Of a DNA stretch of 64,000 nucleotides, positions 7,346 to 58,544 are shown one piece after another. Under the pieces are notes generated by a model. It saw nothing but the letters and a program-made list of their open reading frames with translations, was not told the origin of the DNA and made no database searches. Both the position numbers and the translations under genes were made by a program. The stretch's first letter is position 1. Every line of letters starts with the position of its first letter. The stretch is from Allacma fusca (lineage: Eukaryota > Arthropoda > Collembola > Symphypleona > Sminthuridae), in the NCBI GenBank assembly GCA_947179485.1, contig OX359245.1, positions 60,065,067 to 60,129,066 of the forward strand, given 5' to 3'.

Positions 7346-7434
7346 AGTTCCCATTACTCCGATTGCACTGCTAGATAATGTTAGGGAAATCCCGAGCAGC
7401 TCACAGGACAGACTGACAAAAACATCAGTCCGGA

Positions 7435-7540
7435 CGGATTGGGGTTGGGATTGGGATTGACTGTTTGAATGTACAGAGGGATTGAGACGGAGTGGGATTG
7501 ACGCAAATATGTAGAAAACAGAGTGGGATTGATGAAATAA
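7435..7540 (+). repeat. Degenerate GGGATTGG short tandem repeat, left copy
   Basis: Repeated gggattg/ggattgg words are interspersed with unrelated bases. A similar tract lies near the other end of the candidate element at 13800-13930. Such subterminal repeats are common transposase-binding regions of hAT elements, which is inference here. Reading frames rich in Asn-Pro or Ser-Gln across this tract are artefacts of the repeat. Confidence 0.5.
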
Positions 7541-7825
7541 ACCATGACACCACCCTCCATCTGTTGTGTGATTGTAAGTGAAGTTGTGAAGAACATAAAG
7601 ATGCTGCAAACGTCGAATGCTCCTCATTGTCAGAATAAAACAACTGACCTGGCCGTTAATGCATGCAAGCATTTGCAACCGTAACCGTCAATGTCAGTCA
7701 TTCATATACACTTCATTATTTCTTGCTTCCGTGAAAAAGGCATTTAGCAGAATTTTAACTTGAAAGTTTTAAGTATATTTTATTCAACATATGCTTTACA
7801 TTTAAAACAATTTCCACATTTTCCG

Positions 7826-10499
7826 ATGAATTTCGTCAAAACAGATGAAAACATCTACGAAGGTACGTATACTTCCATTCAACTGAAGTGAAATTTTTTA
7901 AATTTTGGAATCATTTACTATCATATACACTAGCTTGCGGAGAGATCTGTGAGACTGTGGCTTGTACACTGTACTACTCCAGACTTTGATCGATTTTAAT
8001 TATTCATGTATCTAGATGGGATATTTTCTGACCAGGAAGTTGAGACTTTCAATCGGTCTGATAAGACTCAACAGAGAACCTTTGTAGCACTATCGGCTTC
8101 GCAATCCACTCCGCGACATTCTCGAGGACAAGAAATCTACGAAAGTACGTACATTCTCTCTCAGTGAATTGAAATATTTCGTATTATGTAATCAATTACT
8201 ACCATACATTAGCCTTGCGGATAGATTAGTGAGACTTCCTTGCCCACGTTACTACTTTATACTCTGATCGATTGTATTTATTCCTGTATTTAGATGGGTT
8301 ATTTTTTGAACGGGAAGTTGAGATTTTCAGTCAGCCTGATAAGACTCAACAGAGAACCGTTGTAGCACTATCGGCTTCGCAATCCACTCCGCGACATTCT
8401 CGAGGACAAGCAATCTACGAAGGTACGTACATTTACCTCTCAGTGAATTGAAATATTTTATATTTTGAGATCAATTACTACCATGCATTTGCTTTGCGGA
8501 GAGATTAGTGAGACTGTTCCTTGTCCAGTGTACTACTCCAAACTTTAATCGATTTTAATTACTTCTGTATCTTGATGGGATAATTTCTGAACGGGAAGTT
8601 GAGATTTTCAGTCAGCCTGATAAGACTCAACAGAGAACCGTTGTAGCACTTTCGGCTTTGCAATCCACTCCGCGATATTCTCGAGGACAAGAAATCTACG
8701 CAGGTACGTACATTTACCTCTCAGTGAATTGAAATATTTTATATTTTGAGATCAATTACTACCATGCATTTGCTTTGCGGAGAGATTAGTGAGACTGTTC
8801 CTTGTCCACTGTACTACTCCAAACTTTAATCGATTTTAATTACTCTTGTATCTAGATGGGATAATTTCTGAACGGGAAGTTGAGATTTTCAGTCAGCCTG
8901 ATAAGGCTCAACAGCGAACCGTTGTAACACTATCGGCTTCGCAATCCACCCCGCGGAATTCTCATCGACAAGACAGAAATTGGATTAGATACTACTTCGG
9001 CAAGAATTCAGGTTGGTACCAGCAAGATTTCACAATGAATGTGATAGTAGAAGCTGAGTAGAAATATTCTGGTAACGATAAATCATAATTTTCCGTGACT
9101 TGCAGATCCGGTACAAAACGCAAGTCTCAACGTAGCCGGATTAATCGAATCAAATAGCAATAATCTTCAACAGACTGCAGATTCTCAGATAGTTGTAGCA
9201 TTTACTGAGCCCGAATTCCATCCTGATGAGATTTGACAGTGCAATGTCGTTGCACCATCGAATGGAGCAAGTAAAAGGAAAGTGCATACTTCTCATGTTT
9301 GGGAACATTTTGACAGAAACGTTGCTAAGGGTTCGATGAAGTGTAAGTATTGTATTCGGGTGTTAGAAACAACAATATCCAGCAACGCAAAACGACTTTT
9401 GAAAAGTTGTAAACCGTCTCTACTTGAACTTGTAGAGAAAAAAGATAAAGTTGTTAAGAATATCCCTGATAATCCACCGAAACAACAGAAGCTCAGTTGT
9501 TCTCCATTCTATCAGAACAATCATCCCAAACAACATCAATTTAGACAAAATCTTGCACTTCTTTATGGACCCACATCGATATCTGCTAACGTTACACATA
9601 CCGACGAATTTCTAGATTGCTTGAGGGTACTGGACAGCCGTATTCAGGTTGGAGATTTTAAAACTATTATTAAAGATGCAAAACATCTTGTTGAAGAGAG
9701 TGTCGTGAAGATAAAAGCAATGCTTAAAACCGTGAAAAGACTCACTATTATGTCTGATATTTAGACTAAAAAGGGAATGAGAACCAGTTTTCTCGGTGTA
9801 ACTGCTACATTCTTTTACCCACCTTTACAAGAAACGGTTAACGTGATTCTTGGGGTACAAATGTTTACCACAGGTACGCACAAGGCCGAGGACATTATTA
9901 GGGAAATGAAAGTCGTCATGAGGAGATACGAAATAAAAGGAAGTCAAGTCTGGAGAGCACTTACTGATGGGGGCTCCAATATGATATGCAGTCATCGTGC
10001 TGATCGAAGGATCTTCGAATTGCAGCAGGAGGAAATCGGGAACAGTGACGCTGAAGCTAGTACCTTTCATAATGAATCAGACACTGGGTCTGAATCGGAA
10101 GACCAGTATCTGAGCAATGGAGTTGGCTGCAGGACAGAGATTATTTTGGACCTTCAGGATGAACCAAGTCCAGCATATAGAAGACTCACCTGTTTCATTC
10201 ACACAACTTTGGTCTGCCTACAACAGATTGATGTTCAACCGCTTTTGAAACCAGTGGAGGACGATGTCAAGAAGCTCGTAAGGAAGTTCACAACCTCCCA
10301 CAAGCTTACCGCTGCTTTAGTTGCTGATGCAGGTGTGGGATTGATCTCTTTCGGCGAAACACGGTGGAACTATATTTATTTAGTATTTGCAAGAATATAT
10401 CAAGTTAAAAGTTCCATTCAGAAGGTCATAATGACGTACGGGAAGGACAAGTACCGAGTAGTTTCCGAAAAAAATCCATTTATGCCATTCCACGGGTAA
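7826..10499 (+). pseudogene. hAT-family transposase gene with multiplied exons, inactivated
   Basis: The inferred exons are 7826-7862 (ATG start), 8016-8144, 8294-8422, 8575-8703, 8856-9011 and 9106-10499, all joined in phase 1. The last exon encodes a degenerate BED finger (HVWEHFD, then CKYC). It then has the hAT catalytic-domain landmarks: MSDI-TKKG, where the TAG at 9762-9764 replaces the usual Trp, then RALTDGGSNM, CFIHT and TRWNYIY. The C-terminal hAT dimerisation region is missing. Breaks are a TGA at 9234-9236, the TAG at 9762, and TTG in place of TAG at the acceptor of the exon at 8575. hAT transposases cut and paste elements with 8-bp target duplications, and several such elements lie in this window. 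Family assignment is firm, and activity is very unlikely. Confidence 0.8.
8016..9011 (+). repeat. Four-fold tandem duplication of a 129-nt symmetric exon with its intron
   Basis: Four units of about 280 bp each hold a 129-nt exon (the last extended to 156 nt). Each is preceded by a tag acceptor, except unit 3 (ttg), and the first three are followed by a gtacgt donor. All exons are phase 1-1 and open in the same frame, encoding near-identical 43-residue modules with EVE(T/I)F and QQRT.V.LSA.QSTPR. Any number of modules can therefore be spliced without a frameshift. Units 2-4 are closest to each other. The module is not recognised. Confidence 0.8.
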
Positions 10500-10511
10500 C
10501 AGCATCAGCGA

Positions 10512-10547
10512 GAGCGAATTCAGCCTCCCGGGAGGCTGAATTCGCTC
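10512..10547. repeat. Perfect 36-bp palindrome without spacer
   Basis: The two 18-bp halves are exact reverse complements centred on cccggg. It lies 12 bp after the transposase stop codon, close to where the transposase similarity ends. It could be a breakpoint scar, a regulatory hairpin or an assembly artefact. Confidence 0.85.
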
Positions 10548-10969
10548 ATGTTAGATTCAATAATGTTAGCGTGGAATTCGTAGCAAGCCGTGTGGACGTG
10601 TTAGAAGAGCCGGCTAAATAACAAACATTTGCCTTTATTTTTTTAAGTCACCGTTTTGACGATCAATTATTCACAATAGTAACTACTACAGTTTGATTAT
10701 CTAGCTTCTACCCAGGAAGAACTTGCAAAGCCGTCATTAAAGTGACAACTATCAGCATAACTATGAGCCCTTAAGCAATTGTTATTCAAAAACTAAAGAA
10801 TATTCATTGAAAGCAATATATACACTTTCTAAATTAAGAAATAAAAATACATAAAGCATTGTAATTGTTATTACGTTGGATGCAAAATTCATGGAAAAAT
10901 ACATGAGAAACATTAATGTTTGAAAACAGGAATGAAGGAAGGTTAAGAACATTCCAGTTTAATATTTAC

Positions 10970-11762
10970 CTATTGTGGGTGTGCTGTTTTGATTATGCGG
11001 TGAAACTTGATTCTGAAAATGGCTTGGTATATTCGAAGAATGTGCATTAAGTTTAGGTAGCGGTAACTCACTAGGAGCTGGATTTTGTGCTTGGGAGTAC
11101 AGATCTAAAACCTGTTGACAAATGTCTTCAAGTAATTCAATGGACTTGTCTTCCACGAACATATCCCACCGTCTCAGATGATGAGTCCGCGCCTTCCAGT
11201 CCACCACTTCAAATTTGCTCAGTTTGCCAGCCAAGTACATCAACGTGATGGCAATTATTTCTGGTTCCCATTGAAGACACAACGTGGTACACAAGCTAAG
11301 TATTATAAATACAATGCATGAAAATCGTACAAGCTCGAAATGGTTTTCAGTCTCAAAAATAAGAAAAAAGAAACATCAAAACTCAAATCTATACCTGTCA
11401 TTAACAAATGTCCAAGCCATTTGAACCATTTTCTGAAGCCTGCTTTTATCCCCTTTCAGACATTTGGCCTACTTGAGCAAGAATACGTACGGATGTTCTA
11501 CTTGTAAATCGAATTTTATTGTCTGAAGGAGAATCCTCTCCGATGTCACTTCCTCCATCAAAATTATTTTAAATTTGGAGTATTAAATACAAGCCCAGAG
11601 TACAAGATACAACCTTTTTCACTTTACGAAACACACACAAAGCACGGTACTCCCAAAATGATTTCTGATGTCATCTCCAAACTGCTCACAGAACTTGTCC
11701 TTTTCTAACCGATCCAGTACAACTTGAGCTGACTTAATCACGTCCTTACACTTACTGGCCAT
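10970..11762 (-). pseudogene. Cyclin K gene fragment (three exons) with nonsense mutation
   Basis: Minus-strand exons at about 11651-11762, 11395-11552 and 10970-11295 encode consecutive pieces of cyclin K: KCKDVIKSAQ...CEQFGDD, then [16 protein letters not shown]...[19 protein letters not shown], then SLCTTLCLQWEPEIIAITL...FVED...LLEDICQQVLDLYS. The second and third exons join in phase (AG|C). These cover the end of the first cyclin fold and much of the second. The first fold's beginning is absent. An in-frame TAG replaces the expected Tyr in FLLK-Tyr-AK. Cyclin K partners CDK12/13 in transcription elongation. Introns are retained, so this is not a retrocopy. It sits between the transposon ends at 7.38 and 13.94 kb. 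Confidence 0.75.
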
Positions 11763-12241
11763 CTATTCCACTTTCACAGCCAGAAATAATCAAGCACACG
11801 ATGTGGGCTGGAATTACAACGTCATAATTATATCATACCTATTTACACACACATATATCCGGAAACAAAATATTTGTCACGCTTCGTTTATACCCCATAT
11901 ATACACTCAGCATACACCCTGGATCATTCAGGAATTAAAATAAATGTATATGTAAATATCAATAAAATAATAAATTAATAATGTCTGGACAGAACATACT
12001 TGCTCGCTTTAAATCCAAGACGGGACGGGAAGAAGACAACTCGAAGTCTCACTGACTACTAAATAACCTCACTAGGGCGATTTTAGACGAATGAACTATG
12101 AATTGTATCAGCTTTTCAACGTGCTTTAAACGGTTCGCAAACTACTAGTCATAGTCTCATAATAGCTAATGTGATGTGTGTAATTATAATGAAATAGTTG
12201 GTAAAAAATAAGATTGTCACTATAAATGACCACTCGCACTC

Positions 12242-13299
12242 TCAAATATTGTAGTCGAAATCTCGCCAGTCAGGCTTGCCGGCAGGCCTCTGCCTGTATT
12301 TTTTGGTGGTTTTGGAGCAGTGGCACCTGTCACCTACATCCAATTTTGCTGGTTTGGATGACCTCTGAATGCTTCCATACGTTGTGCTGTCCGGATGTTT
12401 CCTTTTGAGTACTAGCATTCTTTTCGCCACTTTCACGGTCATTCTTGCATCCGCAATAGCGGAATGCAAGGAACATTGGAAATCTGTCTTCTGAGGGAAC
12501 AAATGTTGAACCAAGTCCGACAATCGAAATGGCCCCTTCGAATCCCGGAAATAGTCTTGAATTTCCATTATAGTTGTTTTGTTCGACTTGAAATCGTAGC
12601 CAACACTATCCAGATCCTCTTGAACTGCTGCTCCTACGACCGTATTATTAGCCAGAACCTTTTTGATTAGAGCTTTTGCCTGTAAAAATTTGAATGCATT
12701 ATTTTTCACTGGAGATTACAAGAACTTGAAGTACATAAATGTTTAAATCACATGTTCATTTCAATAAACCTGAGCAACAGTTATCCCGTCGTTGATTTTT
12801 CCCGCATCTAATCCTGTTAGTTTGGGGAAGTACTGACAGATGTTTTCTTGTTTGATTATGCGCCATAAAATAAGCTCTCGACGGGCATCAACAATAGCAA
12901 CGGTACCAGCCACCATTTTATGGGAGTCTTTAACATTCAATTTTTCAATATCCATAAAAACCAAGCCATTTTTGGGGATTAGGTCTCCGCGGTAAATCAG
13001 ATCAAATCTATAGTGTTACAAATAATCAGGCACAAATAATTGATTATGACCTGAAAATAAAAAATATTTTAATTCCACTCACTTTCCACGCTGGAAGGCA
13101 CACGCGTGGGGAGCTAGTGAGACCGGTACATTGGTCCACTTTGTCACCCAGCATTAGCCGTTTATTGGCGATGAAGTTTTTGATTTTAGCTAATTTTGGT
13201 TTGCTCAAATCAGGCAAGCTCTTACATACTACATCCACATACTCGTCTTCATCCAGATCATACAACTCATCAACACTTTTTTCTGAAATAAGAACCAAA
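12242..13299 (-). CDS. DEDDh-family 3'-5' exonuclease (REX4/ISG20-like), 5' end incomplete
   Basis: Three exons are visible. 13080-13299 begins after a ttcttatttcag acceptor in phase 1, so an earlier exon must exist. 12770-13007 carries exonuclease motif I (FMDIEKLN) and the LTGLD...INDG segment. 12242-12679 carries motif II (VVGAAVQEDLDSVG) and motif III (HSAIADARMTV), then a basic tail. All four acidic residues and the His of a DEDDh exonuclease appear present, so the catalytic core looks intact. RNA exonucleases of this group trim rRNA, snRNA or viral RNA 3' ends. The donor after 13080 (phase 0) does not match the acceptor at 13007 (phase 2), which means a missed micro-exon or a frameshift. 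It lies in the transposon-bounded segment next to the cyclin K piece and may be a captured copy. Confidence 0.65.
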
Positions 13300-13799
13300 T
13301 TTTCAACTCGGATTACATTTTATTCCAAATACATGAGTAAAAAAGGCATTGAGTTGAAAATATGTATAACTTGTAGCATTTCAAAGACAATAATGCAAAG
13401 CATCAGCGTCAGTTAGACGTCATTGAAACTACACATAATAATTACACCATAGCATTTGTGTTCATCATTACCTCCATAATTAATAATTGCATAAATCCAA
13501 AATTATAGCATCTTTATTCGGAAAAATGCTAAATCCTGTATTAGAATGACTGCCAGTTCATTAAGTCGACTGTTAAATGGATCAGGCATAAAAACATCTT
13601 CAATATGTTTAGATCGAATTTGGTGTGCTATGATTTTCGAAAGTCGTAAACTATTTTTGTTAAAATAAAAATAAACTAACAATTACTTCGATCTTTACTC
13701 TCGAATATGGCCATCCTGACGGTTAAATTAGAGTAGGTAGGAATAGGAACGGGTCTAAATTTTCAACCGTGGTGTATACACGTGGGACTGACTGAGTGA

Positions 13800-13930
13800 G
13801 TGGGATTGATTATACAGAGTATATTTGAGATTGGGAGGGATTGGGAGTTTCCGCTGTAATGCATGGAGTGATTGGGACGGAGTGGGTGAAGAGGTGCCGA
13901 GAGTGAATGGGGATTGGGAGTCTTGGAATA
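13800..13930 (+). repeat. Degenerate GGGATTGG short tandem repeat, right copy
   Basis: Words such as gggattgg, gattgggagg and ggggattggg recur irregularly up to the inverted terminal motif at 13931. It is the counterpart of the tract at 7435-7540 and is in the same orientation. Confidence 0.5.
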
Positions 13931-14026
13931 GGGATTTCCCTAAAATTACTGCTAGAGATAAAATCCTGCAAGTCAAGAACATGCGTATAATAACTAACAA
14001 AAGATACTACAAAAAGCATATTCATG

Positions 14027-15163: not shown

Positions 15164-15975
15164 TGTAGTAAAAGTAAATACATACATATATAGTAGTTAT
15201 TCCATGTATGTAGCAATTATATACAGAACACGGATACACTTATAATTACTATAATTACTAAATAATACCTATGTATATGTATAATTATGCATATATACTT
15301 ATTCTAAATAGAGCTGATACGTTTATGATCACTATATATGTATATGTATGGATATGTGAGTGTGTATGTACAGCTAAAATCTGAACATTTTTCCTCTAAC
15401 TCTCATTGTTAAAGTTGGGATCGAATAAGTTAATACCAAAAGGCTGAAATTTAAGTAAAGAAATATTTAATGAATTAAAAGTGTACAAATTCCTATTTAA
15501 AACTTACGGATATTGTGAAAGCAACATTGTCACCCACCTATTTCCAGTTACATGTTTTGCACTACATGCCAAAATCATTTGTTTTAAAAGCTCTATAGTA
15601 AATTTCTATGGAACATTACAGAATATATTTTCCAATCTTTTGAAATTAAAATTATCTACACAAATCAATTGGGAAGCCCCAACTGAAAACAGGGTAATTA
15701 TCTTTTTAGTACTAAATGTAATATTTGCGTCTAATATTCTGAAGGCATATGAACTTAATATTCAATTGCTTATAAAAGTTCCGTTTCCAAAGTTACTGTA
15801 TTTATTGGTGGATTTTAAGGAATAATTTTGTGAAGCTGTTCAAAATTATGTTTCTCATAAATTTTGCCAGTTAATTAAAAATTAAATTTTAGGTTTTTGG
15901 CCCTCCGTTCACACGCTTGAGCTGACTTGTGCATTTATCTTGATACGATATTTGGAGTCAGATCGTTCCGTGATA
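15164..15975. repeat. 5' flank of the mpaB-like gene, duplicated in block B
   Basis: The sequence from about 15180 aligns to 44640-45336. Shared landmarks are 'atatacagaacac', 'taatctgaacattt' and 'cttgagctgacttgtgca' just before the gene. The 114-codon frame at 15481-15825 lacks an ATG and is not preserved in the other copy, so no gene is called. A promoter must lie here but no TATA box stands out. Confidence 0.6.
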
Positions 15976-17757
15976 ATGCGACTTCCAATATATTATTTCC
16001 TTCTAATAGCTGCAATTTCACGGGGGGAAAGATGCGCAAGACTTGTTGACGAAACTGAGGGAAAATGTTCACCGCTCAACATCTCCAGAATGGTCTCAGC
16101 AAAGGACAATCCAAAACTCAGTGAATATGTACCTGTAACCTCAGAAGCAGTACCTCTTTTCCCACCTTGGTTTGATTTGGAACTTGCAAGGACCGGCCAG
16201 GAATTTGCTTGTAAATATTTTGCCCAATTGGTCTTCGCTAATATAATGAGCTTAGTAGTCGGCCTGTCCGATCTTCCGACTCGTCGTGCGCTATTCCTGA
16301 CAAGGAAATCCAACACCCCTGAAAGGGCCTTCAAAAGATACGTTTCAACTGCGCAACAAGTTCATTTATGGTACCATTCCGACATCCTCGACCCCTCTTG
16401 GGCAAAAAGTATCTCAAATGTTCGGGAAATTCACAATTACGCGTCAAATTATCTAGAATCCCTAAATCCCACAGTCTTAAAATCAGCCGTCCATCCGGAG
16501 GGCAATCCCACGGGTTTCCAGCCCAACGAGAGATTATGGAAAGCTTTTAAAATGGACCTTGTCAAATTAAATTACAAAGATCAACCTACGGATTATTATT
16601 ATTCAGCTCCAAAATTTCAGTTCAAACAGTACAACTTGCAAATGGCAATCTGGCCTTTTATTGCATTGCCTATTTTGAACCCGGAAACTCTGGGGATTGA
16701 AATGCCCAGTGATGAAAAAGGACTCAAGGGCTTTATCCACTTATGGTCAGTCATAGGCTATGCTTTGGGAACTGACGAGGAAAATATTTACTGCAAAGAC
16801 GCTTGGTCTAAAAATGAATGGCAGGGATGCAAGCGTCGATTGAGGGATGCACTTTTTAAACTTTTGCTGCCCCAACTTATGAACTTGGACTTCGAGGGAG
16901 AGATAATGATAGAGTCTGTGCTTTTGGTAATTGTAATTTTTACATTTATAGTTGGTTAGGTCACGTGTTCTTCACGGTACACAAATTATTTAAACTTTTT
17001 CCCATAATCAACTTGAAGGAAGAATTACCGATCTATACATTCCAAATCCTCAATAAGGAGGTCAGTTATATCTCATATCTGACTGTCCCTATAAATTTAG
17101 ATACAATTTTGTGTGCAATAATAAAAGTAGTATTGCTGAGGTTAAGAGGGAGAATTAAATATTTACCTCTCCAATGGATATTCTTTTGCCAATTGTTGCA
17201 TTCCAAATTTGATGACTTATTCCTAGTTTATTGACATGGCACAAAATGAACCAATTCAATTATAAATAATCCCAACAAATTCTTATTTGCCTTTACACGA
17301 AGGAAAACATTTCGCCTTTACTATTACATTTGCAAGAAAGCCTTTTATTACAAAAAAAATTAACCCATTTAAAGAGCAAAATTTCCTTTATTATTAAGAT
17401 ACTTTTGTGGAAACATTTCAAAGACTTGACACAAAATCTAATCGGGGTTTTATTTTGGGTTTGAAGGGTTTTACAGCCAGGTTAGGCGTTTACCCGTTAG
17501 AGGCCGTGTTGAGCAACTTACTGGAAGAACATTTGGGAGTCAGCGCGACGCATGTGCGAGAGCAGTGTAGCTTTCTGTCACTTGTGATCGGAACGACTGC
17601 GAATAACTTCCTCACTCGATATTCAACATATTTCCCACCACTTCGGTGGTTGGCAAACACATTTGACATTGCTACGCTTCAGTTAGCTAGTCTAAGTATC
17701 TTCGGAAATCTTGGGACCAACTCCACTGTTGTATCAAACAACCAATTTTATTACTAA
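15976..17757 (+). CDS. mpaB/rubber-oxygenase-like (DUF2236) secreted or ER protein, copy A
   Basis: Two exons are inferred, 15976-16926 and 17467-17757, joined in phase 0 (donor gtaatt, acceptor tttgaag), giving about 413 residues. The ATG at 15976 starts a signal peptide (MRLPIYYFLLIAAISRG). Family landmarks follow in order: PPWFD near residue 65, LARTGQEFACKYF, RKSNTPERAFKRY, VHLWYHSDILDP, VREIH, AIWPF, LGIEMP and GFIHLWSVIGYALGT. These match arthropod members of the ER-bound oxygenase mpaB/B'/rubber oxygenase catalytic domain. The conserved His residues are presumed haem ligands. The physiological substrate in arthropods is unknown. If the donor is not used, the first exon ends at a TAG at 16957 after a hydrophobic tail. 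The sister copy at 45337 shares the donor, which supports splicing. Confidence 0.75.
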
Positions 17758-43424: not shown

Positions 43425-44639
43425 CGTCGGTGAAACTTCCTAACCGGCTAAAATAAAAAATGCTTAGAATACAGACCGGCTATTTAGCGCTGTCGCTCAA
43501 TACTCACAACAGCCATAATTCCCCCATTTCCCTTAACTTGACCACACCTTCCGCTCCCCTTACACTAATCTCCACGTACGTACTACCATACGTACTACAT
43601 CTACACTCTCCATCCCATTATTTCCCCTCCACCTCCAGTCCACGTCCTTTCCCCTCCATTTCCACACCACTTAACCTCCACCTCACATTATATTACACTC
43701 CCCACCACTTACCCTCCGCTTACCCCTCAATTACATTCCCCTCCACTTGCCCTTCAATTACATTCCCCTCCACTTCCCGTCCGCTTACCCTTCAATTACA
43801 TTCCCCTCCACTTTCCCTCCACTTTCTTTCCATTTTCCCTCAACTTCCCTCCACTTTCCCTCCACTTCCCCTTCAATTATATACCCCTCCACTTAACCTA
43901 CAATTACATACCCCTCCACTTTCCCCCCACTCAACCTACAATTACATACCCTCCACTTTCCCTCCACTTCCCCTTCATTTAAATACTGAGAGGAGAAGTT
44001 GAGGGGAAGTGGAGGGGTTGAGTATTTAAAGGGGAAGTGGAGGGAAAGTGGAGAAAAAGTGGTGGGGTTATGTATTTGAAATGGAGTGGAGGGTAAGTGG
44101 AGGGGTTGAGTATTTAAAGGGGAAGTGGAGGGAAAGTGGAGGAAAAGTGGTGGGGTTATGTATTTGAAATGGAAGTGGAGGGTAAGTGGAGGGGTTGAGC
44201 ATTTAAAGGGGAAGTGGAGGGAAAGGGGAGGAAAAGTGGTGGGGTTATGTATTTGAAATGGATGTGGAGGGAAAGTGGTGGGGTTATGTATTTGAAATGG
44301 AAGTGGTAAGAAAGTGGAGGGGTTGAGTATTTGAAGGGGAGGTGGAGGGGTTGAGTATTTGAAGGGGAAGTGGAGGGGTTGAGTATTTGAAGGGGAAGTG
44401 GAGGGGAAGAGGAGGCGAAGTGGAGGGTAGTGGAGGGAAGTTAAGGGTAGTGGTTTCGAAGTGGACTGGAAGTGGAGGGGAATTGTGGGATAGTGGAGGT
44501 AAACTCCACTCCACTTACATGATACACTGCAAAGGGGAATTATGGCCGGGTTTCACTTTAGAGTTTCTTGCGGAAGCGCTATAGCCGGTTTTCATTTTAG
44601 TCATTTTAAATTATAGCCGGTTAGGAAGTTTGGCCGACG
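43425..44639. mobile_element. 1.2-kb TIR element made of a strand-switching purine/pyrimidine minisatellite
   Basis: The ends cgtcggtgaaacttcctaac (43425) and the inverse gttaggaagtttggccgacg (ending 44639) form a TIR of about 30 bp including ccggcta. It is flanked by atat on both sides (or by a TA duplication if the ends start one base further out). Block A has the uninterrupted site (attatatacag near 15215). The left half is pyrimidine-rich (ccctccacttcc) and the right half purine-rich (ggaagtggaggg), switching near 43985. The 180-codon Ser/Pro/Thr frame at 43460 is a by-product of the repeat. Confidence 0.8.
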
Positions 44640-45336
44640 ATATACAGAACACTAATTATTCTGAATAAAATAGACACATTTTTATTACTATAATTATATA
44701 TAAATATGTACATATAAGTGTTTATGTATAAATATAATATAATCTGAACATTTTACCTGCAGCTCTCATTGCTAAAGCCGAGTTGGAATAAGTTGATACA
44801 AAAGGCTTGAATTTAAGTACAAAACATTTCATAAATTAGTTGTAGAACAATACCCGTCTAAAACTCTTGATATTGTGAAAAGGACACTCATCCAAGTATT
44901 TTCAGTTACATACTTTGCGTTATACCCCAAATTAGTTTGTTTCAAAAGCGCTATAGTAAATTTCTATGAAACATTACAGAATATATTTGACAAGCTTTTG
45001 AAATTAAAATTACCTACAAAAAACAGGTGAGAAGTGTCAACTGAACACACGACAATTAATTATATTTTTAGTACTAATTTCAAGACTTGCAGCCAATATA
45101 AAATTAAAATTCAATTAATTATTTATAAAGGTTACGTTTTTAAAGTTACTTTATTTTTAGGTGGATTTTAAGAAATAATTTTGTGCAGCTGTTCAAAATT
45201 ATATTTCCCATAAATTTTGCCAGTTAATTAAAAACTGAATTTTGGAATTTTAGCCCTCCGTCACCACGCTTGAGCTGACTTGTGCAATTATCTAGATACA
45301 ATATTTGGAGTGCGGTTGTTCCATGTGCGTCCGATA
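44640..45336. repeat. 5' flank of mpaB-like copy B
   Basis: Collinear with 15215-15975 of block A up to the start codon. No coding sequence. The strongest conservation is in the last 100 bp ('gccctccgt', 'cacgcttgagctgacttgtgca'), which likely includes the shared promoter or leader. Confidence 0.6.
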
Positions 45337-46287
45337 ATGCGACTCCCAATATACTGTCTCCTTCTCATAGCTGAAATCTCTCGTGGGGAAAAATGTGCAA
45401 GACACATTGACAAAACTCAGGAAGAATGTTCCACGTTAAGCATCTCCAAAATGGTCTCAGCAGAAGACAATTTAAAACTCAGTGAACATGTGCCCGGAGC
45501 CCCAGAAACAGCACCTCTTTTCCCACCTTGGTTCGATTTGGAACTTGCAAGGACCGGCCAGGAATTTGCTTGCAAATATTTTGCCCAATTGGTCTTCGCT
45601 AATATAATGAGCTTAGTAGGAGGCCTGGCGGATCTTCCGACCCGGCGTGCGATATTTCTGACAAGGAAATCCAACACCCCTGAAAGGGCATTCAAACGAT
45701 ACCTTTCAACTGCACAGCAAGTACACTTGTGGTACCATTCCGACATCCTCGACCCCTCTTGGGCGAAAAGTATCTCAACTGTTCGAGAAATTCACATTTA
45801 CGTGATAAACTATCTAGAATCCCTAAACTCCACAGCTTCGAAATTTAATGTTAATCCTGAAAACAATCTAACTGGTTTCCAGCCTAATGAGAGATTATGG
45901 ACAGCTTTTAAAATGGACATTGCCAAATTAAATTCCGAGGATCAACCTCTTGAGATGGAAGTTAAACAGTACGGCTTGCAAATGGCAATCTGGCCTTTTA
46001 TTGGATTGGCTATTTTGAACCCGGAACCTCTGGGGATTGCAATGCCGAGTGAGGAAAAAGGACTCCAGGGTTTTGTCCATTTATGGTCAGTCATAGGCTA
46101 TGCTTTGGGTACGGACGAGCAAAATATTTACTGCAAAGACGTCTGGACTAAAAATGAATGGCAGGGATGCAAGCATCACTTGAGGGAAATACTTTTGAAA
46201 ACTTTTCTACCCCAACTTATAAACTTGGACTTCGAGGGGCAGATAATGATAGAGTCTATGATAATGGTAATTATTTCATTGACATGA
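45337..46287 (+). CDS. mpaB/rubber-oxygenase-like (DUF2236) protein, copy B, 3' exon lost
   Basis: The ATG at 45337 opens a signal peptide and a frame open to a TGA at 46285, strongly similar to copy A throughout (PPWFD, LARTGQEFACKYF, RKSNTPERAFKRY, VREIH, GFVHLWSVIGYALGT). About seven residues are missing after DQP relative to copy A. The conserved donor gtaatt follows 46266. The matching second exon is ruined: at 46521 its frame meets a TAA at 46536, and a transposon sits at 46597-48008. If not spliced, the product ends after about 317 residues. The open first exon suggests recent loss or a functional truncated form. Confidence 0.65.
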   Translation: MRLPIYCLLLIAEISRGEKCARHIDKTQEECSTLSISKMVSAEDNLKLSEHVPGAPETAPLFPPWFDLELARTGQEFACKYFAQLVFANIMSLVGGLADLPTRRAIFLTRKSNTPERAFKRYLSTAQQVHLWYHSDILDPSWAKSISTVREIHIYVINYLESLNSTASKFNVNPENNLTGFQPNERLWTAFKMDIAKLNSEDQPLEMEVKQYGLQMAIWPFIGLAILNPEPLGIAMPSEEKGLQGFVHLWSVIGYALGTDEQNIYCKDVWTKNEWQGCKHHLREILLKTFLPQLINLDFEGQIMIESMIMVIISLT

Positions 46288-55939: not shown

Positions 55940-56580
55940 GATTACAATTAACGATTAACGATTACTTCAAAAACAAAATGAATTTATAATTACAATTAAT
56001 GATTAATGGGCTTATAACTAATAATTAATCATTACGATTAACGATTACTTTAAAAATATTATTCACTGATGATTACAATTAACGATTACTTTAGAAATAA
56101 TTTTCACTGATGATTACAATTAACGATTACTTTAGAAATAATTTTCACTGATGATTACAATTAACGATTACTTTAGAAATAATTTTCACTGATGATTACA
56201 ATTAACGATTACTTTAGAAATAATTTTCACTGATGATTACAATTAACGATTACTTTGAAAATATTATTCACTGATGATTACAATTAACGATTACTTTAAA
56301 AATAATTTTCATTGTTGATTACAATTAACGATTACTTTAAAAATAATTTTCATTGATGATTGAAATTAACGATTAACGATTATTTTGAAAATTAATTAAT
56401 TGAGGATTGCAATTAACGATTATCTTTTAACAAAATATTTAATTGTCGATTACAATTATTAATGTTTATTTTTTTAAACATTTAATTGTCGATTACAATT
56501 ATTGTTTATTTTTTTTTAACATTTAATTGTCGATTACAATTATTGTTAATTTTTTTTAACATTTAATTGTCGATTACAAT
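55940..56580 (+). repeat. Minisatellite, 41-bp unit, left array
   Basis: Repeats of gattacaattaacgattac followed by ttyaraaataattttcactgat, about eight units, several identical. They pass into shorter units of aacatttaattgtcgatta/caattattg (about four) toward 56580. Confidence 0.85.
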
Positions 56581-56739
56581 TATTGTTCAATCAATCAAGG
56601 CCTGTTCGGCCAGTTTATTGCATTTACTCGGGCTTACCCATAATGCATTACATAGATACAAATTTTTGAATGCATGAAATTAGGAAGAAGGCTAGTTGTT
56701 TACATAGATTCACGTCGGCGTTACAAATATTACGAAGGA

Positions 56740-57165
56740 CTAGTCTCTTGAGATGTGTGAAAAGTACTTAGTTCTAATATCACATAAGTACTTGCAGTCA
56801 TACAGAATGTGCTCAATGTCATAAAGTGTAGGTGGGCCACACAGCTAACAAAATTCTTCATTAAATATAATACAGTTCATTCGATAGATTAGCCTACTGC
56901 TGTTGAGTCGAAACTGGCAAAATAGGGCTTTGAGTGACAATGGAATGTGGGTATTTAGATACTGCTTGCATTTATCATTTTAATAAGCTAACTTGTGCAA
57001 AGGGTGAGACGAGGAGTTCAGGATTCTGTTCATGTCGTGTAAACTGCTCTGATCGTAAACAGAGTGTATTATATCCTTTATATTATCAGCCAGATACACC
57101 GGACACTGCTTAGTAAAAACTTCTTCGAACCCTAGACTGCTTAGAATTTTGGAGACGTCGCCAGC
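56740..57165 (-). pseudogene. Non-LTR retrotransposon ORF2 C-terminal fragment
   Basis: One minus-strand frame with two in-frame stops (TAA at 56980-56982 and a TAG before LCG) reads AGDVSKILSSLGFEEVF, LSLKALFCQFRLNSS and LCGPPTLYDIEHILYDC. The last is the C-x2-C...H-x4-C-like knuckle that ends many non-LTR polyproteins after the reverse transcriptase/RNase H region (first Cys replaced by a stop). Truncated at both ends and dead. It sits between the two minisatellite arrays of the inner hAT element. Confidence 0.6.
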
Positions 57166-57480
57166 CCGATAATTGATGATTACAATTGATAATTGATTTT
57201 TGAAAACGGCTAATTGATGATTACAATTGATAATTGATTTTTGAAAACGGTTAATTGATGATTACAATTGATAATTGATTTTTGAAAACGGTAAATTGAT
57301 GATTACAATTGATGATTGATTTTTGAAAAAGGTTAATTGATGATTACAATTGATGATTGATTTTTGAAAAAGGTTAATTGATGATTACAATTGATGATTG
57401 ATTTTTGCAAAAAGGTTAATTGATGATTACAATTGATGATTATTTCAAAAAATCCAAGCTTACTAAATTAACGATTGATG
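57165..57480 (+). repeat. Minisatellite, 41-bp unit, right array
   Basis: About six to seven units of gattacaattgataattgat followed by ttttgaaaacggttaattgat. The period and the gattacaatt core are the same as in the left array, but the rest differs, so the arrays expanded separately from a common ancestor unit. Confidence 0.85.
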
Positions 57481-58544
57481 ATTAATAATTAGTAATCATT
57501 AATCGTTAATCATTAATCGTGATTATTAATCGTTGACATCCCTGCTTATCAGCAAAAAAGCTTAAAAGTAAAGTTGCTTTTCCGCCCTCAAAAGTAATAA
57601 ACAAGTTACGGTACAATAATTATTTTATAGTACAAAAATATGCAGGAACAATGAAATTATTTATTGAAAAAGCAACAAAATAGTAAAAAAACGTTTAGCT
57701 GAAATTCATATGTTTAAACTAAAGTACCCGGGGACGCAACCGGGTACTTGCATAACTTTTGGGAATGGGTACACGTTTTGGGTACTTTTCAGGAACGGGT
57801 ACAATTTCAGGAACAGGTACAAGATTTAAGACGTGTGAACAGGTACAGGAACGGAAAATTTGTACCTGCAAAAGTTTAGCATAGGTACAGGAACATAAAT
57901 TTTGTACCTGTATTTATGGGTTCGTGTTCAGGAACAGGAACCAAGTTTTTGTACCTTTGCGCTTCCCAAGTTGAGTGTTATAAGTTAAAACTAACTCGTA
58001 ACAGGTTACTGTTACAAAATCATTTTATGTATAAGTATGATGGTCAAATTTCGATGGTGTTGTGTAGAATTATGTCAATTGGCTGAATGTTATTAAAAAT
58101 CAACCACTGAAAAACCACGTGATTAGAAAGAGCTCAGTTGCCGTACTTACCGATGAAGTGATTTTTAACAAAATTTTGAAAATATTTTTAGCAAATTCCG
58201 TAATTCCGTCTAACGATTAATGGTAAGACACAAAATTTTTACTTTACATACTTTTCCCAATAAATTAAAACGTTGATTTACGGTTTGAATAGTCGCATAC
58301 AGGGGGCAACGCATTTACTATCTCCAGTTCGCACTTTGTGTTTCTCCCACCAGAACATATAAGGATATGTTAATTAACACAGGGAACCATCTGGTCAAAT
58401 TTAGGTAAAAGATCTGGAAGGTAAAAAATCTGTAAAATTTTGGTGGAATGTTATGTGGAAGGTCAAGTGGAAGGTCTAGTGGAAGGTGGAAATCCTGGTG
58501 GATGGTGGAAAGTAATTTTGTGGCCGGGAAAGTAGAACTCAGCC

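Follow-up and report, generated by a model that had tools for sequence, protein, structure and literature searches.

A hAT transposon of Allacma fusca with a tandem array of symmetric exons and a conserved exonuclease gene

The element and its transposase gene

The window analysed here (64,000 nucleotides of Allacma fusca DNA; contig OX359245.1, positions 60,065,067 to 60,129,066) carries a mobile element at 7376-13948 (6,573 bp), flanked by perfect 8-bp target-site duplications, CTGCTAGA, at 7368..7375 and 13949..13956. Its 17-bp terminal inverted repeats lie at 7376..7392 on the forward strand (TAATGTTAGGGAAATCC) and at 13932..13948 on the reverse strand, with one mismatch between them. The first ~160 bp of the element (7376-7535) are common to a MITE family, for which there are at least 41 matches besides the window copy and a second copy at C8:36.68 Mb, 38 of them at 96-97% (best 40 of 144 candidates scored). 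Eight-bp target duplications are visible in 8 of 8 MITE copies among the matches listed, and it was from the inverted repeat and target duplications of this family that the right end of the window element was found at 13948. The similarity over the left 160 bp suggests recent cross-mobilisation. The C8 element spans 10,905 bp between two copies of CCATGCGG, and a third copy, at C1:65.78 Mb, has neither end.

Gene 1 of the element lies on the forward strand and opens with exon 1 (7826..7862), 12 codons plus 1 nt that hold the sole in-frame ATG found 5' of the BED finger (MNFVKTDENIYE). A 281-bp tandem array occupies 7853..8963 (TRF: period 281, 4.0 copies, 87% matches, score 1642). Each of its four units comprises intron 1 and the 5' part of exon 2, joined to the final ~10 nt of exon 1; where an internal module ends, ~119 nt from the start of exon 2 give way to the last ~10 nt of exon 1 with the exon 1 donor site. 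Three module exons of 129 nt (8016..8144, 8294..8422 and 8575..8703) precede a terminal module of 156 nt (8856..9011), which is a full exon 2 of ancestral type with a YYF motif near its end. All four are on the forward strand, in phase 1-1 and in one open frame throughout. The introns that precede them measure 153, 149, 152 and 152 bp and have GT-AG borders in three cases, the acceptor before 8575 being mutated from AG to TG. The alternative frames contain stops in 23 of 24 module readings, as do all 33 readings of 11 introns. A preliminary description, made from the letters alone, had proposed just such an array of 129-nt phase 1-1 exons with their own introns and one lost acceptor, within a hAT gene and in the frame of the ATG exon, and all of this is borne out. 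The exon array in the window is real: its TRF score and the recurrence of the same exon edges at three loci exclude chance and a plain satellite.

The same description had carried this frame on into the transposase exon, and here the claim stands only in part: the modules are open in the frame of the ATG exon, but exon 3 (9106..10454, forward strand), which encodes the hAT core together with the BED finger, is interrupted by stops at 9234 and 9762. Beyond 10454 the homology to the fuller copies is lost, and with it the C-terminal part; given this and the two in-frame stops, the window transposase gene is dead. About 5.8 kb of the C1 copy, between the points that match window positions 10454 and 10471, is missing from the window copy; this stretch carries further open frames besides the end of the transposase gene. 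A perfect 36-nt palindrome (10512-10547) lies near the deletion junction and is absent from the matching C1 sequence.

Further to the right, a captured fragment of a cyclin K gene (10959..11375, reverse strand; PDB cyclin K, E 8e-27) lies inside the element in both the window and C1 copies. It occurs at one further place in the genome, C10:23846680, where a gene with 89% amino acid identity to the window fragment is likely the host cyclin K gene. The fragment indicates that this hAT element captures host DNA. The range first described, 7826..10499, does contain the exons, but the mobile element is larger than that range; the reading as a hAT gene was right for gene 1 but missed a second gene, on the reverse strand at ~12242-13319.

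PF14372, the hAT-like RNase-H domain, stays below its cut-off of 27 bits (17.5 in the C8 copy, 20.4 and 19.5 in the distant relatives L047 and L048), so hAT membership rests on other features. The PF05699 dimerisation domain scores 50.6 bits in the C1 copy (cut-off 21.4) and 49.8 bits in the C8 copy, with one stop inside it there, and is absent from the window copy. The BED zinc finger (cut-off 20.6 bits) is above threshold in the C8 copy (24.7) and L047 (21.1), and below it in L048 (17.6) and the window (18.4). All of the top 11 Foldseek matches are to Hermes (E 1.1e-7 to 1.8e-5), obtained with a low-confidence model (mean pLDDT 51.5) and with TM-scores of 0.22-0.31. The element shares with the hAT superfamily (Hermes, hobo, Ac, Tip100, Buster) its 8-bp target duplications, short inverted repeats, BED finger and C-terminal dimerisation domain; it differs in the tandem symmetric exons 5' of the BED finger and in the reverse-strand exonuclease gene.

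The C8 transposase (L009 + L012) retains a long open frame and reads SYIWT where the C1 copy reads SDIWT; the Asp lost from this motif is probably the first catalytic residue. Matches to the hAT dimerisation domain number at least 150 genome-wide (best 150 of 860 candidates scored), so this genome is very rich in hAT elements.

Elsewhere in the window, the region 43600-44550 consists of C-rich tandem repeats (CCCTCCACTT type) and, after them, the same repeats in reverse complement; the two halves form a large, imperfect inverted repeat in which both strands have open frames. A pair of long open frames that are related to each other (15886-16959 and 45274-46287; 75% amino acid identity over 324 residues) lie about 28 kb apart, and neither has a Pfam match at E 0.01. 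The stretch 55954-57531 holds several tandem arrays that are AT-rich and have a unit length near 41 bp, and the window also carries a 7tm_1 receptor gene.

Copies of the module and history of the array

Searches of the genome with about two units at the DNA level, and with the module at the protein level (E up to 10; 12 of 12 candidates scored), found the module at three loci only: the window, C8:36.68 Mb and C1:65.78 Mb, all of one hAT family. Other module-bearing copies, whose absence would have spoken against the preliminary description, thus exist, and the module number varies between copies: four in the window, three at C8, at least five at C1, where the array is cut at its left end, and one in a more distant copy with a decayed gene, L044 (C1:60.157 Mb), in which the left end and exon 1 are present and exon 2 is single and of the terminal type. 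All 12 modules of the three loci are open (11 complete, one truncated at its left end). Two exon length changes were seen, each of 3 nt, and the introns of 11 units are 149, 151, 152 or 153 bp long.

With L044 as outgroup, a tree built from 11 units unites the three terminal units in one clade (support 100) and pairs the first unit of the window copy with that of the C8 copy (support 98), the other nodes being weak (28-76). The terminal-unit clade and the first-unit pairing indicate that the array is older than these insertions and that its size changed later.

L047 and L048 have long open transposase frames, which are 50% and 48% identical to the C8 copy in a full-length alignment. Both have the three-exon layout seen here, with phase 1 at each junction and a conserved YYF motif closing exon 2, as judged from splice sites identified by eye. 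This shared layout suggests that the symmetric exon 2 probably predates the array. Exon 1 of these relatives holds a duplication of its own, of ~35 residues (SFRCTEIAxSL), whose repeats are 64% identical over 33 residues in L047 and 52% over 25 in L048, so N-terminal duplication recurs in this clade. The 43-residue module shows no clear similarity to the exon 1 repeats (best E 5.6). TRF found no arrays of the 281-bp type in 11 other related loci, scanned over stretches not all of which reach the left end of the element. Tandem arrays with units of 53 bp and 75 bp lie 5' of the BED exon in L029 and L030, respectively (TRF).

The exonuclease gene on the reverse strand

Three open frames make up the second gene: an upstream frame (13044..13319), a frame with the ExoI motif (12761..13015; FMDIEKL, by eye) and a frame with the ExoII (D) and ExoIII (H...D) motifs and a likely splice acceptor inside (12242..12715), all on the reverse strand. 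The window and C8 elements both enclose this gene. By eye, ExoI (DxE; FMD[IV]EK) is present in the window, the C1 copy and L070, and the key residues of ExoII (D; VVGAAVxxD) and ExoIII (H(x4)D; HSAI[AS]D) are invariant in four of four sequences. The Pfam RNase_T family stays below its cut-off of 24 bits (the L070 gene model scores 21.4, that of the window 14.5). Matches in the PDB are weak (ISG20L2, E 0.0075; ISG20, 0.025; plant SDN1, 0.066; PAN2, 0.83), the last exon alone returns none, and the predicted structure of an exonuclease fragment has a mean pLDDT of 44. In viral contigs, relatives were confirmed for neither the transposase nor the exonuclease.

A genome search with the exonuclease gave 25 matches, 14 of them without stops. 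Seventeen of the 25 lie within 15 kb of a hAT locus, at 16 different loci and tail-to-tail in 17 of 17 cases, where 0.11 would be expected under uniform placement; the hAT set used here comprised 55 grouped loci from at least 99 matches (82 of 236 candidates scored). A single place on C5 accounts for two of the 17, which overlap, and the matches at C8:20.9 and 69.1 Mb seem to be recent copies of one another; the independent cases are thus fewer than 17. The other eight matches have no hAT match within 15 kb, and one of these (C10:57166649) is near a hAT dimerisation-domain match at C10:57165732. Among the 55 grouped hAT loci, 39 are not the nearest hAT of any exonuclease match within 15 kb; the second gene is therefore not universal in this wider hAT set.

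Target duplications lie outside both genes in four elements, whose transposases are as little as ~48-50% identical. For L047 and L048, the target duplication was read at the visible end and the predicted far end was then sought by exact search of the whole genome. Each 17-mer is unique genome-wide and lies beyond the exonuclease (C10:21944283 and C8:27066642, respectively; two of two exact-match tests). The right end of L044, which is decayed and was sought with two mismatches allowed, gave 122 sites genome-wide (65 forward, 57 reverse), none of them near 60.16 Mb among the C1 matches listed; a control pattern gave 14 forward and 19 reverse sites.

The exonuclease is under purifying selection. 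Its dN/dS is 0.27 between the window and C1 copies, and in five deeper pairs pS is 0.82-0.91 against a pN of 0.26-0.29 (92 codons). In the C8 copy, two stops interrupt the exonuclease match.

Constraint on the modules and readings of the element

Unlike the transposase body, the module amino acids look unconstrained. Over all pairs of the 12 modules, which are not independent of one another, pN/pS is 0.94; divergence over 11 units is 0.104 for exons vs 0.115 for introns; and exon 2 compared with L044 gives dN/dS values of 0.59 to 2.20 (12 comparisons). Single pairwise dN/dS values scatter widely among modules because few changes are involved. For the transposase body, dN/dS is 0.18 (L043) and 0.27 and 0.39 (L044), and the ratios among the three near copies (0.69, 0.50 and 0.49) have the pattern expected of post-insertion decay. 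The absence of stops from the 12 modules is by itself weak evidence for coding, since a simple estimate under neutrality, from a minimum of 49 changes with 4.8% of changes creating a stop, expects ~2.3 stops and puts P(0) at ~0.09.

The strongest argument for use of the upstream exons is the start codon, which only they provide. In both the window and the C8 copy, exon 1 has the only in-frame Met 5' of the BED finger, in-frame Met is absent from 11 of the 12 modules (the exception is the C1 terminal module), and in all three copies the part of exon 3 before the BED finger has none, the first Met of exon 3 falling within the finger. This supports a need for the upstream exons.

We consider it probable, taking the explanation as a whole, that this is a two-gene hAT element with a dead, internally deleted copy in the window, tolerated growth of the exon array and a co-mobile exonuclease. 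Gene 1, the transposase gene, is built of an ATG exon 1, a symmetric phase 1-1 exon 2, and an exon 3 with the DDE core and the BED finger. Tandem duplication of a segment reaching from late exon 1 into exon 2 would have fused the 5' portion of exon 2 with the final ~10 nt of exon 1, giving a 129-nt hybrid exon that would keep acceptor, donor and reading frame, after which the 281-bp unit would have multiplied. In tandem duplication of symmetric exons, a phase 1-1 exon is copied with its intron and the frame is kept; the present case differs in that the copied exon combines exon 2 with the end of exon 1, and in that it lies in a transposase gene. As we infer the splicing, each added unit could be included or skipped without a frame break, and growth of the array would therefore be tolerated. 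The longer N-terminus, whose sequence is without sign of selection, would probably be flexible, and the number of modules would hardly matter to the protein. We read the array as tolerated growth of the transposase N-terminus, with splice tuning possible. Gene 2, tail-to-tail with gene 1, encodes a conserved, predicted DEDDh-type 3'-5' exonuclease (ISG20/REXO-like) and moves with the element. The most likely job that we infer for it, by analogy with the Kolobok and Dada nucleases, is the trimming of 3' DNA ends during or after cut-and-paste.

Functional modules, whose alternative inclusion would tune transposase dosage, multimerisation or DNA binding, are an unlikely alternative to tolerated growth. 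The exons are frame-neutral with conserved donors, their number varies by copy, both exon length changes are of 3 nt whereas intron lengths differ by 1-4, and the relatives have their separate duplication of ~35 residues in exon 1, all of which would fit such a role; the pN/pS of 0.94, the about equal divergence of exon and intron, and the range of 0.59 to 2.20 for exon 2 against 0.18-0.39 for the transposase body point the other way, and the frame of the window terminal module has no Pfam domain. The selected regulatory or multimerising module that the preliminary description had offered as one interpretation is not supported by these ratios.

A bolder view, which we judge quite unlikely, is of a two-component hAT lineage in which an ISG20/SDN-like exonuclease would be needed for spread and would destroy silencing small RNAs, the array being a quickly adjustable N-terminus. 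Such an anti-silencing role, in place of end trimming, is suggested by the weak similarity to SDN1 together with the known properties of SDN nucleases.

We think it very unlikely that the array is non-coding, that is, a subterminal repeat to which the transposase binds or that acts as an enhancer, its open frame having arisen incidentally when a coding exon was copied. The similar divergence of exons and introns would agree with this, as would the start of the array ~480 bp from the left end of the element and the chance of open modules under neutrality (P ~0.09), but the transposase start codon requires exon 1, and the same exon phases are found in distant relatives that have long open transposase frames and, by TRF, no such array. 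That the exonuclease is a nearby host gene, or entered the element in a single capture as did the cyclin K fragment, which shows that this element takes up host DNA, is extremely improbable: the same gene lies in the same orientation at 16 hAT loci and inside target duplications in four elements with transposases down to ~48-50% identical, its motifs are conserved under purifying selection, and the 17/17 tail-to-tail pairing with the two far-end target-duplication finds excludes a neighbouring host gene.

To our knowledge, hAT elements are usually described as single-gene transposons. Neither a hAT with an exonuclease gene nor a hAT with tandem exons was found among the literature matches listed, which include the excerpted texts of PMC9587614, PMC3706591 and PMC3985635; Repbase and most subscription journals lay outside the scope of this search. 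The combination of a hAT with a conserved exonuclease gene appears to be new. The nearest parallel is KolobokD, a DNA transposon lineage with TTAA target duplications and an accessory DEDDh exonuclease; in the excerpted text this nuclease is described as similar to exuperantia, TREX and ERI1, and 3' end trimming in transposition is proposed (PMC9587614). The element described here is likewise a DNA transposon with an accessory DEDDh exonuclease, but it belongs to another superfamily, makes 8-bp target duplications, and its nuclease has ISG20-like proteins as best matches. Dada, a DDE transposon of Laccaria and Ectocarpus, encodes a DnaQ-like 3'-5' exonuclease, for which the excerpted text proposes processing of cleaved 3' ends (PMC3706591). 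Both transposons thus encode a 3'-5' exonuclease, but the DEDDy domain of Dada is inserted in the transposase, whereas here a separate gene has the DEDDh pattern.

If the two-gene reading is true, accessory 3'-5' nucleases have become part of transposons in at least three superfamilies (Kolobok, Dada and hAT), and the role of such nucleases, in end processing or in escape from silencing, would become testable. The exon array is a clean natural case of in-frame gene growth by way of a symmetric exon, with three copies and a single-unit relative that give its history.
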